Assembly (NCBI GenBank): GCA_017474455.1
Contig: JAFVHP010000033.1
Span: 1-64,000 of the forward strand
Length of the DNA: 64,000 bases
Reading direction: 5' to 3'
From: Lachnospiraceae bacterium
GTDB taxonomy: Bacteria; Bacillota; Clostridia; Lachnospirales; Lachnospiraceae
A model generated the notes under the pieces. The model ran no database searches. It was not told the DNA's origin and worked only from the letters and a program-made list of their open reading frames with translations. This document shows positions 4,721 to 58,594 of the stretch, in pieces; position 1 is the first letter of the stretch; each line of letters opens with the position of its first letter. The translations under genes were made by a program, and so were the position numbers.

Positions 4721-6103
4721 ATGAGTAAAGCAAACGTACCCTACAAGATGTATCTGGAAGAACACGAGATCCCGACAGCATGGTATAACCTAAGGGCGGA
4801 CATGAAGAACAAGCCTGCCCCGCTGATCCATCCCGGAACCCTGCAGCCGCTGAAATTCGAAGATATGCAGCCTATTTTCTGCGATGAGCTGATCAGGCAG
4901 GAACTCAACGACACGGATCCCTATATCGAGATACCGGAAGAAGTCCTGAATTTCTACAAAATGTACCGTCCTTCACCCCTCGTACACGCGGAGTTCCTTG
5001 AGAAAGCCCTGGATACGCCGGCCCATATTTATTACAAGTTCGAAGGCAACAACACTTCCGGCAGCCATAAGCTCAATTCCGCCATCGCGCAGGCCTACTA
5101 CGCCAAGAAGCAGGGCCTGAAAGGCGTTACGACAGAGACCGGCGCGGGCCAGTGGGGCACCGCCCTTTCCATGGCATGCGCGTTCTTCGGCATCGACCTG
5201 AAGGTTTATATGGTCAAGGTCTCATACGAGCAGAAGCCTTTCCGCCGTGAGGTCATGAGGACCTACGGCGCGTCCGTAACACCTTCGCCTTCCATGGAGA
5301 CCAACATCGGCCGCAAGATCAACGAAGAGTTCCCCGGGACGACAGGGTCTCTGGGCTGCGCGATCTCCGAGGCCGTGGAAGTGGCTACTTCCCTCGAAGG
5401 ATACCGTTATGAGCTGGGCAGCGTCCTTAACCAGGTACTCCTCCATCAGTCGATCATCGGTCTCGAGACCTATACCGCCTGCAAGAAATACGGAATCAAG
5501 CCCGACGTTATCGTCGGCTGTGCCGGCGGCGGTTCCAACCTGGGCGGCCTGATCGCTCCTTTCATGGGCGAAAAGCTCCGCGGCGAAGCGGATTACAGGA
5601 TCGTCGCGATCGAGCCCGCGTCCTGCCCCAGCTTTACCAGAGGCAGATATGCCTATGACTTCTGCGATACGGGCATGGTCTGCCCGATGGCCAAGATGTA
5701 CACCCTCGGCCACGACTTCATTCCTTCCGCCAACCATGCCGGCGGCCTCCGCTATCACGGTATGAGCCCTATCCTTTCCCAGCTTTACGCGGACGGCCTG
5801 ATGGAAGCCCGTGCCGTTGAGCAGACTTCCGTATTTGAAGCGGCTGAACTCTTCGCCCGCACGGAAGGTACACTGCCCGCTCCCGAATCCAGCCATGCGA
5901 TCAGAGGCGCCATCGACGAAGCACTTAAGTGCAAAGAGACCGGCGAAGAGAAGACCATCATCTTCGGGCTGACCGGTACCGGCTACTTCGACATGACTGC
6001 CTATGAAAGCTTCAACAACGGCAAGATGACCGATTATATCCCTACGGACGAGGATCTGGAAAAAGGATTTGCCGGGATCCCGAACGTGGAGATCAATTTC
6101 TGA
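4721..6103 (+). CDS. trpB: Tryptophan synthase beta chain, TrpB2 type
   Basis: A 460-residue pyridoxal-phosphate enzyme that joins indole and serine to give tryptophan. The PLP lysine is Lys117 in GSHKLNSA and the phosphate loop GGGSN is at 269-273. The long N-terminus, the GSHKLN rather than GAHKIN motif, and the length are typical of TrpB2, the form that often works without TrpA. No trpA or other trp gene is near, which fits an indole-salvage role. ATG at 4721 was chosen because AAGGAG lies seven bases upstream; ATG at 4718 is too close. Expression should follow tRNA-Trp charging through the T-box. Confidence 0.94.
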   Translation: MSKANVPYKMYLEEHEIPTAWYNLRADMKNKPAPLIHPGTLQPLKFEDMQPIFCDELIRQELNDTDPYIEIPEEVLNFYKMYRPSPLVHAEFLEKALDTPAHIYYKFEGNNTSGSHKLNSAIAQAYYAKKQGLKGVTTETGAGQWGTALSMACAFFGIDLKVYMVKVSYEQKPFRREVMRTYGASVTPSPSMETNIGRKINEEFPGTTGSLGCAISEAVEVATSLEGYRYELGSVLNQVLLHQSIIGLETYTACKKYGIKPDVIVGCAGGGSNLGGLIAPFMGEKLRGEADYRIVAIEPASCPSFTRGRYAYDFCDTGMVCPMAKMYTLGHDFIPSANHAGGLRYHGMSPILSQLYADGLMEARAVEQTSVFEAAELFARTEGTLPAPESSHAIRGAIDEALKCKETGEEKTIIFGLTGTGYFDMTAYESFNNGKMTDYIPTDEDLEKGFAGIPNVEINF

Positions 6104-25977: not shown

Positions 25978-26014
25978 ATATGACTTGTAAAGCACACATT
26001 TGTAAATATGTACG

Positions 26015-26043
26015 TTGACATCTAAAATATGTTGTGCTATAGT
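26015..26043 (+). promoter_or_regulatory. Strong promoter of the Lys/Ala-rich gene
   Basis: A consensus TTGACA (26015-26020), a 17-bp spacer and TATAGT (26038-26043). About 100 bases of leader follow before the ATG. Confidence 0.85.
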
Positions 26044-26147
26044 ACGGTCGTTTGAAATTGTGTGTATTGTTTATACAATTAGTTCAGCTCCGGTAAGAGG
26101 AGCAGCATTGCCATATGCGAACAAATGCGAACGAAAGGAGCAGAAAA

Positions 26148-26666
26148 ATGGCTGAGGAGAAGAAAACAAAACCTGTAGCAACGGTAAAGACTGAGACACT
26201 GAAGGCTGCGGATACAGCTAAGGAAACCGTTAAAGCTGAAGAACCCGCAAAGAAGACCGTTAAGGCCGCTGCAAAGAAGGCTACTGCCAAATCTACAGCC
26301 AAGGTTAAGGAAGTTAAGGAAACTGTTAAGGAAGCAGTCAAGGAAGCTGCCGCCCCTGTAAAGAAGGCTGCTGCGAAGACTACTGCTAAGGTTGCTGCTG
26401 CAAAGCCCGCAGCAAAGACTGCCGCTAAGAAGGCAGCTCCTGCAAAGAAGGCAGCTAAAGCAGCTGAGACTTCTTACAGTGTTTCCCTTCAGTACCAGGA
26501 TAAAGAATGGAATGTCAAAGGCCTCGTAGAATCCGCAAAGGATGTATGGGTCTATGATATGGGCCGCAAGGCTGAAGACTTCAAGGATGTCGAGCTTTAT
26601 GTCAAGCCCGAGGATTCAAGAGTTTACTTCGTAGTCAACGGAGAATCCGGAAGCTTCGCGCTTTGA
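26148..26666 (+). CDS. Lys/Ala-rich histone H1-like protein with a DUF6465-type C-terminus
   Basis: A 172-residue protein. Residues 1-110 are almost entirely Lys, Ala, Thr, Val and Glu with repeated KKA, AKK and VKE steps, like the tails of histone H1 and of bacterial H1-like or HU-fusion proteins, and so likely to bind DNA or RNA. The last 62 residues form a small globular domain (SYSVSLQYQDKEWNVKGLV, later VWVYDMGRKAEDF) that I believe is DUF6465, a Lachnospiraceae family of unknown function. AAAGGAG precedes the ATG by seven bases. A near-consensus promoter suggests abundant expression; codons are simpler and more AT-rich than in neighbouring genes. A terminator and the 90-bp array follow. 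Confidence 0.82.
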   Translation: MAEEKKTKPVATVKTETLKAADTAKETVKAEEPAKKTVKAAAKKATAKSTAKVKEVKETVKEAVKEAAAPVKKAAAKTTAKVAAAKPAAKTAAKKAAPAKKAAKAAETSYSVSLQYQDKEWNVKGLVESAKDVWVYDMGRKAEDFKDVELYVKPEDSRVYFVVNGESGSFAL

Positions 26667-26694
26667 TCCTGAAATAAGTAATAAGGAATAAAAA

Positions 26695-26721
26695 ACCCAG
26701 TGCCGGCGCACTGGGTTTTTT
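26695..26721 (+). terminator. Terminator of the Lys/Ala-rich gene
   Basis: ACCCAGTGC (26695-26703), loop CGGC, GCACTGGGT (26708-26716), then T. The stem is identical to the one that ends the fourth 90-bp unit. Confidence 0.9.
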
Positions 26722-26730
26722 ATGACTATT

Positions 26731-27090
26731 ATTCTAAAGCTGTAATCCTATACCATTTCAATCGGCCCGCTTGAGCGGGACGAGGAACCCGGCGTGCTGA
26801 CGCCGGGTTTTTTTATTATTATTCAGAAGCTGTAATCCTATATCATTTCAATCGGCCCGCTGTAGCGGGCCGAGGAACCCGGCGTGCTGACGCCGGGTTT
26901 TTTTATAATTATTCTAAAGCTGTAATCCTATACCATTTCAATCGGCCCGCTTGAGCGGGACGAGGAACCCGGCGTGCTGACGCCGGGTTTTTTAAATTAT
27001 TATTGTAAAGCTGTAATCCAATATCATTTCAATCGGCCCGCTTTAGCTGGACGAGGAACCCAGTGCGCAGGCACTGGGTTTTTTTATTTT
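26731..27090 (+). repeat. Four tandem 90-bp units, each ending in an intrinsic terminator
   Basis: Units start at 26731, 26821, 26911 and 27002. Each has a conserved 35-base lead (AAGCTGTAATCC, then ATTTCAATCGG), a short hairpin (GCCCGC with GCGGG) and a 9-bp stem followed by six to eight T. Units 1-3 use ACCCGGCGT/ACGCCGGGT (at 26787-26808, 26877-26898 and 26967-26988). Unit 4 uses ACCCAGTGC/GCACTGGGT (27058-27079), so the stem changes on both sides and pairing is kept. No open frame or clear promoter is seen within a unit. The array lies between the Lys/Ala-rich gene and hrcA. It could be an array of small RNAs or a multiple terminator block. Confidence 0.9.
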
Positions 27091-27119
27091 TATTTTATAA
27101 GTTTTTATCGACGGTTCAG

Positions 27120-27148
27120 TTGACATAGTCAGAGGGCAGTGCTATTTT
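27120..27148 (+). promoter_or_regulatory. Promoter of the hrcA-dnaK operon
   Basis: TTGACA (27120-27125), a 17-bp spacer and TATTTT (27143-27148). The CIRCE element begins 13 bases after the -10 box, where HrcA would block initiation. Confidence 0.8.
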
Positions 27149-27161
27149 ATGGAAGTAAGAA

Positions 27162-27188
27162 TTAGCACTCGAATTGAGTGAGTGCTAA
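27162..27188. promoter_or_regulatory. CIRCE operator (HrcA binding site)
   Basis: TTAGCACTC, nine bases, GAGTGCTAA: an exact match to the CIRCE consensus inverted repeat. It lies between the promoter and hrcA, so the operon is expected to be repressed by its own first product and released on heat shock. Confidence 0.97.
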
Positions 27189-27226
27189 CAAAAGCGGAAG
27201 GTTTTACAGAACAGAAGCTGAAACAG

Positions 27227-28252
27227 GTGGAACTGCAGGATAGGAAGATGAAAATATTACGGGCTGTCATCCGCAACTACCTGGAAACGGGCGAGCCTGT
27301 AGGCAGCAGGACGATATCCAAATACACGGACCTTAACCTGAGCAGCGCGACGATAAGGAACGAGATGTCGGACCTGGAAGAGATGGGGCTGATCAAACAG
27401 CCGCACACATCCGCCGGAAGGATACCTACGGACGAAGGCTACCGGCTGTACGTCGACGACATGCTCAAGGAAGAACGCCGGGAAGTCGAAGAGATGAAGA
27501 GTCTCCTGGTCTCGAGAGAGGACCGGCTGGAGAATATCCTTAAGGAAGTGGCAAGGCTCCTGGCAGCGAATACGCAGTATACTTCGCTGATATCCGCGCC
27601 CATGATACAGCAGAACAAGATCAAGTTCATCCAGCTTTCGCAGGTGGACCCGGAACATCTGCTGGCGGTCATAGTAATAGAAGGAAATATGATCCGCAAC
27701 TCGATGATCCGCGTGGAACAGGAACTTACGCCGGAAACGCTGCTGATGCTGAACATGCTGCTGAACACGAACCTGAACGGCCTGCCGGTGGACCAGATCA
27801 ACCTGGGCCTGATCGCGAAGATCAAGAAGGAAGCCGGCATCCACGAGACGATCATCGAAGACGTGATCGATGCCGCAGCCGAAGCGATCAAGCCGGATGA
27901 AGACCTGCAGATCTACACCAGCGGCGCTACGAACATTTTCCGGTATCCCGAGCTTTCGGATAACGAGAGGGCCAGCGAACTGCTGGGAGATTTCGAGGAA
28001 AAGCACGTTCTGAAGAACATCGTCCAGGAAAGCCTGCAGGACGTGAACGAGACCGGCATCCAGGTATATATCGGCAATGAAATGCCGGTGGACAGCATGA
28101 AGGACTGCAGTCTGGTGACGACCACTTACGACTTGGGAGACGGGATGAAAGGTACGGTCGGCATCATCGGGCCGAAGCGGATGGACTACGACAGGGTGGT
28201 CAGTGTATTGAAGGAGATATCGAGGCACCTGGACGACCTGTATAAGAAATAA
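27227..28252 (+). CDS. hrcA: Heat-inducible transcription repressor HrcA
   Basis: A 341-residue repressor that binds CIRCE; its folding by GroE links repression to chaperone load. The N-terminal winged helix has GEPVGSRTISKYTDLNLSSATIRNEM and HTSAGRIPTDEGYR; the C-terminal GAF-like domain ends VGIIGPKRMDYDRVVSVL. The start needs care: the reading frame stays open back to a GTG at 27182, but that lies inside CIRCE. The GTG at 27227 gives VELQDRKMKIL, aligning with the usual MELDERKLKIL start, though its ribosome site is poor. ATG 27248, with a GGATAGGA upstream, is the alternative. Confidence 0.94.
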   Translation: MELQDRKMKILRAVIRNYLETGEPVGSRTISKYTDLNLSSATIRNEMSDLEEMGLIKQPHTSAGRIPTDEGYRLYVDDMLKEERREVEEMKSLLVSREDRLENILKEVARLLAANTQYTSLISAPMIQQNKIKFIQLSQVDPEHLLAVIVIEGNMIRNSMIRVEQELTPETLLMLNMLLNTNLNGLPVDQINLGLIAKIKKEAGIHETIIEDVIDAAAEAIKPDEDLQIYTSGATNIFRYPELSDNERASELLGDFEEKHVLKNIVQESLQDVNETGIQVYIGNEMPVDSMKDCSLVTTTYDLGDGMKGTVGIIGPKRMDYDRVVSVLKEISRHLDDLYKK

Positions 28253-55524: not shown

Positions 55525-55597
55525 TGGGCTATCGCCAAGCGGTAAGGCAACGGACTCTGACTCCGTCATTTCGAAGGTTCGAATCCTTCTAGCCCAG
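55525..55597 (+). tRNA. tRNA-Gln (CTG)
   Basis: A complete cloverleaf. Acceptor TGGGCTA pairs with TAGCCCA, the anticodon stem ACGGA/TCCGT encloses loop CTCTGAC with anticodon CTG, and the T-arm is GAAGG/CCTTC. The discriminator is G, and CCA is not encoded. The CTG anticodon reads CAG; a TTG isoacceptor is presumably elsewhere. Confidence 0.95.
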
Positions 55598-55643
55598 GGA
55601 ATAAAAAAGAAACGGCAAAGCCGTTTCTTTTTTATTCCCTGGG
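55593..55643 (+). terminator. 24-bp terminator hairpin overlapping the tRNA-Gln 3' end
   Basis: A perfect 24-bp stem (55593-55616 with 55620-55643) with loop AAA and a T-rich right arm. Its first five bases are the last bases of tRNA-Gln, so terminator folding would compete with the acceptor stem until the tRNA is trimmed. Confidence 0.85.
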
Positions 55644-55745
55644 CGGACTTTTGAATACAAGGCAGCAGCGTATATTCTTTCCGGAAAACCTGCGAAGCAG
55701 GTTTTGCCGCAGAGCGCTGGCTCTGCGGCTATCTAGCCCAGTCGA

Positions 55746-57496: not shown

Positions 57497-58594
57497 ATGA
57501 GACAGTTTGATTACAAAAAGTACAAAACATATCGTTGGGATAATGAGATCTTGAATTACCTTTCTCAGATACATGAGTATAAAGGGAAACAGGAGTTATT
57601 TCTTAGGCAAAAACCTGTTGAAATGGAAAGGCTTGTAGAGGTTGCCAAGGTTCAGTCTATTGAATCATCCAATAGAATTGAAGGTATTATAACGACAAGA
57701 ACCAGAATTGGACAGCTGGCTAAGGAAAAGACAACACCAAAAAATCGAGATGAAAGAGAAATAGCCGGTTACAGGGATGTATTAAATACAATTCATGAAA
57801 ATTATGAGTATGTTCCGGTAAATGGAAACATCATACTTCAGCTGCATCGTGACTTGATGCAGTATGCGGAAACAGGAAACGGCGGAAGATATAAAATTAC
57901 ACAGAACTATCTGAAAGAAACGAAAGAAGACGGAACAGAGGTGATTCGTTTTACACCTGTACCTCCTTATGAAACTGAACCCTGTATCAATGCTATATGT
58001 GAGAATTACAATTTCATGATGGAAGATGCATCGGTTGATCCGTTACTTATTATTCCGGTATTTTTGCATGATTTCCTTTGTATTCACCCGTTCAATGATG
58101 GCAACGGCAGAATGAGTCGATTGCTTACGCTGCTGCTTTTATATAGATCCGGATATCTTGTAGGTAAATATATCAGTATTGAGAAGCATATCGAAAAGAC
58201 TAAAGATGCTTATTATGATGCTCTTGAGGATTCATCAGCAGGATGGCATGAGGAAGAAGACGATCCGACCGTCTTTGTAAAGTATTTGCTCGGCGTGATA
58301 CTTGCCTGTTATCGGGAATTTGAAAGCAGGGTAAACATCATTAGTGACACCACAGTAATATATGAAACTGAGACGGGGAAGAAAAAAGTCATTACGATAA
58401 AGAGTAAGGCTTTTGATATCGTAAAAGCATCCGTTGATACAAAAATCGGGAAGTTTACTAAACGTGAAATAGTAAATATATGCCCAAGCATAAGTGAAAA
58501 ATCTGTTGAGGCTTCATTGAAGAAGCTTTTAGATGAAGGTTATATAGTGAAACATGGATCAGGAAAAAGTACTTTTTATTCTAAAAAGTTTTAA
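57497..58594 (+). CDS. Fic family protein with a C-terminal winged helix
   Basis: A 365-residue Fic protein, usually an AMP-transferase acting on protein hydroxyls. The active motif HPFNDGNGR is at 197-205 with catalytic His197. The inhibitory helix motif (S/T)xxxE(G/N) is present in SSNRIEG (57-63), so it is a class II Fic, auto-inhibited by its own N-terminus. The last 65 residues (about 300-365) read as a winged helix (FTKREIVNICPSISEKSVEASLKKLL), fitting DNA binding and self-control through the flanking inverted repeats. It is AT-rich compared with core genes and alone between accessory remnants, so probably acquired. No antitoxin gene is adjacent. Confidence 0.9.
   Translation: MRQFDYKKYKTYRWDNEILNYLSQIHEYKGKQELFLRQKPVEMERLVEVAKVQSIESSNRIEGIITTRTRIGQLAKEKTTPKNRDEREIAGYRDVLNTIHENYEYVPVNGNIILQLHRDLMQYAETGNGGRYKITQNYLKETKEDGTEVIRFTPVPPYETEPCINAICENYNFMMEDASVDPLLIIPVFLHDFLCIHPFNDGNGRMSRLLTLLLLYRSGYLVGKYISIEKHIEKTKDAYYDALEDSSAGWHEEEDDPTVFVKYLLGVILACYREFESRVNIISDTTVIYETETGKKKVITIKSKAFDIVKASVDTKIGKFTKREIVNICPSISEKSVEASLKKLLDEGYIVKHGSGKSTFYSKKF

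Follow-up and report, generated by a model that had tools for sequence, protein, structure and literature searches.

A tandem array of terminator-bearing hairpin units upstream of hrcA in a Lachnospiraceae bacterium probably consists of copies of a REP-like interspersed repeat

The window analysed here is a 64,000-nt stretch of DNA from the genome of a Lachnospiraceae bacterium (G000, below its own genome). Within it, four direct-repeat units of 86 bases each lie between a DUF6465 gene, which has an 11-of-12 promoter match in its upstream region, and a heat-shock operon. The operon opens with hrcA and grpE, both recognised by Pfam matches, followed by dnaK and dnaJ, which were recognised by eye from their translations. 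In front of it lies a presumed CIRCE operator, and the true hrcA start probably lies downstream of the listed one, after this operator. Each repeat unit runs from a conserved lead through a short hairpin (hp1) to a T-tailed terminator hairpin (hp2), and the features of the region are as follows.

26115-26666, plus strand: DUF6465 gene (PF20069, Pfam match), upstream of the array
26688-26723, no single strand: bidirectional terminator of the DUF6465 gene; its minus-strand reading is a solo hp2 of the repeat family, with a weak model match at 26690-26765 on the minus strand
26728-26813, plus strand: unit 1, with lead 26728-26761, hp1 26762-26783 and hp2/terminator 26784-26811 with T-tail
26818-26903, plus strand: unit 2, with hp1 26852-26873 (perfectly paired, extra G-C) and hp2/terminator 26874-26901
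26908-26993, plus strand: unit 3, with hp1 26942-26963 and hp2 26964-26991
26999-27084, plus strand: unit 4, with hp1 27033-27054 (weakened) and hp2 27055-27082, which has three paired substitutions relative to units 1-3
27120-27148, plus strand: hrcA promoter-like site, TTGACA-17-TATTTT, downstream of the array
27162-27188, no strand assigned: presumed CIRCE operator of the heat-shock operon, TTAGCACTC-N9-GAGTGCTAA, downstream of the array
27182-28252, plus strand: hrcA open reading frame as listed (Pfam match)

Self-comparison for repeats placed the four units at 26728-27084 with spacings of 90, 90 and 91 nt, the array copies being 83-96% identical to unit 1 over 96 nt. Unit 3 equals unit 1 base for base over 86 bases, and both fold into an unpaired lead, hp1 and the terminator (z -3.29). 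Unit 2 has the same layout with a few additional lead pairs (z -5.23), and its hp1 shows a G-C pair where units 1 and 3 show G.A. In unit 4 the terminator is kept (z -2.65), with three pairs and the loop of hp2 changed relative to units 1-3; the changed pairs still pair, and the resulting stem, AACCCAGTGC/GCACTGGGTT, is that of the DUF6465 terminator at 26688-26723, the loops being GCAG in unit 4 and CGGC in the terminator. The hp1 of unit 4 is weakened by GCTGG in place of GCGGG and is absent from the minimum-energy fold. An earlier sequence-only reading of this DNA had described the four tandem units with their spacing and order of parts, the extra pair in the short hairpin of unit 2, and a terminator stem in unit 4 that is changed on both sides yet paired and matches that of the preceding gene; the repeat comparison and the folds agree with it on all these points. 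The short hairpin that it saw in every unit holds for units 1-3, while in unit 4 hp1 hardly folds. A 38-nt inverted repeat (26680-26717 / 27057-27094, 87% complementary) brackets the whole array and consists mostly of two terminators and their A/T tails. No inverted pair linking both ends of any single unit, as in MITE-type terminal inverted repeats, was found in the self-comparison.

By sequence, all four units have the G+C-rich hairpin followed by a sense-strand T-run that defines an intrinsic terminator. Between the DUF6465 stop codon and CIRCE there are five terminator-like sites, compared with a mean of 0.15 in 20 plain shuffles, and on both strands of 26000-27400, counted in the array or not, there are 10, compared with 1.4 +/- 1.3 in dinucleotide shuffles. 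This excess is far beyond chance.

HrcA was found in 58 of the 62 genomes of the genus, and 30 loci, the window's own included, were compared, each with flanks of about 1.5 kb unless the contig ended sooner; the closest relative's HrcA is 75% identical. Within these flanks the repeat unit was absent from all 29 other hrcA loci. The DUF6465 gene lies upstream of hrcA in 18 of the 29 relatives, and the interval from it to CIRCE holds one terminator-like site in 15 of the 18, none in two and two in one (17 loci counted in one scan, L148 scored separately), against five here. From the DUF6465 stop codon to CIRCE the distance is 109-389 nt in 16 relatives, 741 nt in one and 1101 nt in another; here it is 498 nt. 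Judged from these comparisons, the array is probably new at the hrcA site and probably grew by local duplication after a copy had arrived, because the four units resemble each other more than they resemble other copies; the array leads (w1-w4) are 0.92 alike among themselves, compared with 0.67 to other copies in the own genome.

A DNA-level search found the array unit again on contigs 10, 16 and 26 of the own genome. Covariance models were then built from 8 copies (R1), 22 copies (R2) and 26 copies (R3, comprising 25 from the congeners G002 and G048 and one from G203). With R2, the own genome contains 16 strong matches at 11 places (E<=2.1e-9), five of them inside the window (26.7 kb and 55.65 kb); the match at C16:283 kb is without hp2 and that at C15:143 kb has a shortened lead. 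Own-genome matches on C46 and at C26:112 kb were dropped as unconvincing. The remaining copy in the window is the following.

55651-55733, plus strand: fifth window copy, a congener-type unit without T-tail, directly downstream of a tRNA gene and its terminator

The 10 bases that end this tRNA gene (TCTAGCCCAG, 55588-55597) reappear at 55732-55741, and the two repeats bracket the tRNA terminator and the fifth copy (55588-55741), resembling a small insertion at a tRNA end. Further along the window, a gene for a Fic/DOC family protein (PF02661) occupies 57497-58591. On contig 39 of the own genome (L056 2682-3097) another tandem repeat, with a period of mostly 52 bases and seven occurrences of CCAGGCCGTATC, adjoins a repeat copy; it is apparently unrelated to the hairpin repeat.

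Among relatives the family is patchy, and the carrier counts for genus and family are lower bounds, since fast filters were used and a limited number of candidates was scored per genome. Across the 62 genus genomes, R2 at E<=0.01 gave 27 matches in G002, 4 in G048, 8 in G038 and one weak match in G029, some of them partial, so that 5 of 62 genomes count as carriers with the own genome and the single weak match included. Across 397 family genomes, with the best 11 candidates of each scored by R3, there were at least 11 matches in G203, at least 11 in G619, 9 in G436, 5 in G698 and 1 in G662; at least 6 of the 397 genomes are carriers, the own genome included, and the matches extend to four other genera of the Lachnospiraceae. 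Samples scored with R3 at E<=0.001 gave a single match for G203 (129 kb) and 7 matches, 5 of them strong, for G619 (265 kb), the latter sample taking in contigs already known as copy carriers. Ten of the 11 G619 matches consist of the two hairpins only, with the lead uncovered, and the G038 matches are weak and embedded in a longer G038 repeat; either set may be a different family. That longer G038 repeat (L069-L071, L188-L191) is itself dispersed, has conserved flanks outside the two hairpins and is possibly a separate family. In 295 genomes of the order, R2 at E<=1e-4 with the best 15 candidates scored per genome matched G000, G203 and G328. The G328 match (L195) has hairpins without a lead and was dropped as unconvincing, as were the single weak matches in G039 and G029. 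The exact lead pattern occurs in 47 stretches of genome_contigs, and among the 11 of these inspected by eye the two hairpins were present only in L083, apparently the same as G002; one pattern scan of viral_contigs, with the own-genome sequence type only, gave 0 matches.

The sequence-only reading had proposed a covariance-model search of relatives in advance, a lack of homologous arrays to count against it, and such arrays do exist elsewhere: tandem copies were found in G000 (C10 and C15:92 kb), G002 (C144 and C167), G203 (C20) and G619 (C50), those of G203 and G619 being about 92 bp apart. Working from one window, that reading had no means of recognising the units as a dispersed structured repeat. 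In G002 (L066, L067) there are also solo or partial leads without hairpins, either in tandem or as direct repeats of about 36 nt on both sides of a unit, and these look as if the lead can duplicate by itself. A molybdenum cofactor riboswitch match (RF01055) lies at 5098-5290 of the G002 locus L171, about 2 kb from a two-unit repeat array.

Copies were placed relative to neighbouring genes in the own genome and in G002 and G048 (29 rows for the latter two, 25 from G002 and 4 from G048, without C144b, C47b, C33 and one C31 match and with C63b and another C31 match); of the flanking proteins checked in the own genome and G002, 19 of 20 scored over the Pfam cut-off and one just under. Six own-genome loci lie between convergent genes, with hp2 at -12 to +2 nt from the stop codon of the opposing gene, and the window array is in sense relative to its upstream gene. 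Many G002 and G048 copies are antisense to their flanking genes, in spacers. There, an antisense stop codon is found within 5 nt of hp2 in 11 of 29 rows, and a start codon preceded by a Shine-Dalgarno (SD) sequence follows the lead at 10-18 nt in 11 of 29 and within 58 nt in 18 of 29, a frequent layout being stop codon, hp2, hp1, lead complement, ribosome-binding site and start codon. One G203 copy is placed likewise before a start codon, by eye. For 15 of the 29 rows the scan also reported an open frame on the sense strand, probably the shadow of a real gene. In the own genome 6 of 11 first units closely follow a terminator in a strict scan; insertion always following a terminator was ruled out as a family-wide rule, only 1 of 13 G002 units tried doing so.

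T-tails are distributed unevenly. A T-run of at least 5 follows hp2 in 10 of the 16 own-genome matches (leaving aside the run near C16:283 kb, where hp2 is missing), in 1 of 29 G002 and G048 rows and, as a run of 5, in none of 8 G203 copies inspected by eye; T-tails are present in the G436 copies and, as runs of 5 or more, in most of the G619 copies shown. Because the T-run is patchy across carriers, termination does not define the family. It is the hairpins, and in most carriers also the lead, that define the element, the terminator being a state of some lineages. In the main subfamily of the own genome hp2 carries a T-tail in most copies, yet 6 of the 16 own-genome matches lack a strong one, so that even here termination is not a fixed property.

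Alignment of the copies revealed a conserved architecture with changing stems. Across 20 rows from G000 and G002, little or no variation is seen in the lead core (G-C-G...A-YCA-TTC) or in the hp2 loop G-C-N-G, and three model alignments show the GCNG loop in 20/22, 25/26 and 13/14 of their rows. G203 copies have a less strictly conserved lead, and in most G619 copies it is unrecognisable. Between G000 and G002, identity is 0.57 in the lead and 0.36 in the stems. In alignment A5, two-sided changes occur at 20 of 21 pairs, and of 415 cells 92 are two-sided (27.5 +/- 3.6 when shuffled), 13 one-sided and 41 unpaired; in alignment A7, of 482 cells, 164 are two-sided, 6 one-sided and 23 unpaired. 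Fitting to the model biases both alignments towards pairing, but controls slid by 1-3 columns gave 34-46% paired cells, compared with 90-95%. Template switching predicts few one-sided intermediates, according to PMC8794818, and the scarcity of one-sided stem changes here is as it predicts, strong selection being the alternative. On the element strand G.U pairs outnumber A.C mismatches by 13 to 0 in 30 congener-type rows and by 26 to 7 in own-genome rows, with the outermost two pairs of hp2 contributing most. When the hairpins are folded freely, the element strand has 33 G.U pairs and the opposite strand 0. This bias favours RNA structure on the element strand over a role in an opposite-strand mRNA; the lean is weak and comes mostly from those outermost pairs.

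The copies are dispersed intergenic palindromes near gene ends and so are REP-like small interspersed repeats in the broad sense. In Di Nocera et al. 2013 (PMC3733652), REPs are described as small palindromic, intergenic sequences in many copies, located in spacers of co-directional and of convergent genes, frequently no more than 20 bp from gene 3' ends and able to supply a stop codon; GTAG REPs are thought to be mobilised by Y1 transposases, and CGTC REPs are without a known transposase. The present repeat resembles the REP, BIME and REPIN elements of these GTAG and CGTC superfamilies, as characterised there, in being a multicopy intergenic palindrome near gene ends. It differs from a REP in that its unit spans about 85-92 bp and joins a conserved lead to two different hairpins whose order is fixed, in forming head-to-tail arrays and in often carrying a terminator T-tail. 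No conserved unpaired GTAG or CGTC tag beside a palindrome was seen by eye in the alignments: hp1 is flanked by AAYCGG or GGGAG, the GTAG inside a few leads (C16_227, C15_92a and one G002 copy) lies about 10 nt from hp1 and is not conserved, and the GACG after hp1 in the own genome is part of the stem foot. The Y1 transposase (PF01797) had 0 matches in eight of nine draft genomes with the repeat (G000, G002, G038, G048, G203, G436, G619 and G662, among which G038, G619 and G662 are weaker carriers) and one match, with an internal stop, in the ninth (G698); it was present in five of seven genomes without convincing copies (G039, G015, G016, G042, G059, G004, G051). A RAYT-driven REP was rejected because Y1 is missing from eight of the nine carrier genomes, although in drafts such an absence is not absolute.

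Other known elements are similar in part. The BOX, RUP and SPRITE repeats of pneumococcus, which PMC3049150 calls parasitic by common view and almost absent from most related species, are likewise small interspersed Firmicute repeats with extensive secondary structure, a likeness at the level of description. The CIR repeats of Caulobacter share a similar size, an intergenic position and two hairpins; as portrayed in PMC2229807, they are about 110 bp long and alphaproteobacterial, with two hairpin arms, a linker and GANTC at a loop, whereas the present repeat belongs to Lachnospiraceae and usually has GCNG as its second loop. Finally, hp2 with its T-tail is like an intrinsic (Rho-independent) terminator in 10 of 16 own-genome copies, in G436 and in most G619 copies shown, and unlike one in G002, G048 and G203, given their near lack of T-runs. 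At gathering score, Rfam had no match over the units, in agreement with the earlier statement that no named RNA family of this kind is known to it; a recurrent weak resemblance to anti-hemB (26.2 bits against a cut-off of 49.5) was set aside. Top-ranked literature matches, including PMC12306157, PMC3049150 and PMC2229807, contained in the portions available no description of such a repeat in Lachnospiraceae. On this analysis we would file the family as small interspersed palindromic repeats, provisionally REP/BOX-like, that lack the GTAG-REP tag and transposase and have no Rfam match.

How the array came to lie before hrcA can be read in several ways. It is very unlikely that the units form a multicopy family of regulatory small RNAs, each with its own promoter, the lead as a single-stranded 5' seed and a terminator, as the sequence-only reading had suggested in proposing a tandem array of terminated small RNAs. 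The units do have the look of such RNAs, with a mostly unpaired lead that is better conserved than the covarying stems, a 3' terminator and G.U pairs confined in the free folds to the element strand (33 to 0). However, upstream of 16 own-genome units a scan for the sigma-70 consensus found no promoter beyond shuffle level: the best match was 8 of 12, which at least 18% of plain shuffles reach; for comparison, the scan scored the hrcA promoter at 10 and that of DUF6465 at 11. The near absence of T-runs from G002 and G048 (1 of 29 rows) and the many antisense copies in spacers also speak against this proposal, and so few one-sided changes would be unusual under selection at the RNA level. A role on the other strand, as an intercistronic mRNA element that shields the ends of upstream mRNAs or adjusts how the following gene is translated, and that was co-opted here as a terminator, is quite unlikely as well. 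It would suit the G002 and G048 copies with hp2 near an antisense stop (11 of 29) and an SD-preceded start past the lead (11 of 29, or 18 of 29 within 58 nt), and the similarly placed G203 copy. Such placement is nevertheless also usual for REPs, which PMC3733652 gives as thought to be selfish; moreover, this role predicts the opposite of the free-fold G.U pattern, the window array lies in sense, and the scan reports a sense-strand open frame for 15 of 29 rows.

The position of the array invites a further explanation, in which selection multiplied terminators as a purpose-built barrier to read-through between the strong DUF6465 promoter and the CIRCE-controlled operon. Five strong terminator-like sites in series, the 11-of-12 promoter match and an operon that begins just downstream of the array all fit such a barrier, but it appears unlikely as the origin of the array, given the single terminator-like site in 15 of 18 relatives with DUF6465 upstream of hrcA and the tandem units at unrelated places in G000, G002, G203 and G619. 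Since units stand in tandem at unrelated loci, tandem growth is a property of the repeat and not of the hrcA locus. The earlier suggestion of a barrier before the heat-shock operon is supported as a possible block to read-through. A purely local terminator duplication, unconnected to any wider family, would finally account for the identity of units 1 and 3 and for the stem that unit 4 shares with the neighbouring terminator, and has virtually no chance of being right, being refuted by the dispersed copies in the own genome and in relatives.

Taken together, the data make it probable that the array consists of head-to-tail copies of a REP-like small interspersed repeat that were amplified locally and act here as stacked terminators. 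The unit of this repeat comprises a lead of about 33 nt followed by two palindromes, the short hp1 and then hp2, whose loop is usually GCNG; the repeat would have spread to many intergenic sites of the own genome, and it occurs patchily in the family. We infer both termination in the cell and, from the dispersal, spread at the DNA level, through some mobiliser or through replication or recombination. One copy may have settled behind the DUF6465 terminator and then multiplied by tandem duplication. Transcripts that pass this terminator would then face four further ones, making a series of five ahead of the hrcA promoter, and these would insulate the CIRCE-controlled heat-shock operon. Because tandem growth is also seen at unrelated loci, such insulation would be a consequence of the repeat and not its reason.

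More speculatively, and with more doubt than belief on our part, the family could be a family-wide, RAYT-independent mobile DNA hairpin element that targets gene ends and carries a terminator in some lineages. Its stems would be renewed as whole palindromes by template switching during replication, not by stepwise compensatory mutation, and each copy would offer a terminator for the next. A new copy supplying the terminator behind which the next can land would explain the head-to-tail arrays.

If the REP-like reading of the array is right, a spreading repeat can supply terminators in these gut bacteria, and the number of terminators at a locus would therefore partly reflect the dynamics of the element. 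The repeat family also offers a natural data set, with paired stem changes and few one-sided intermediates, for testing how palindromes keep perfect pairing, and a case for studying the spread of REP-like repeats without RAYT.
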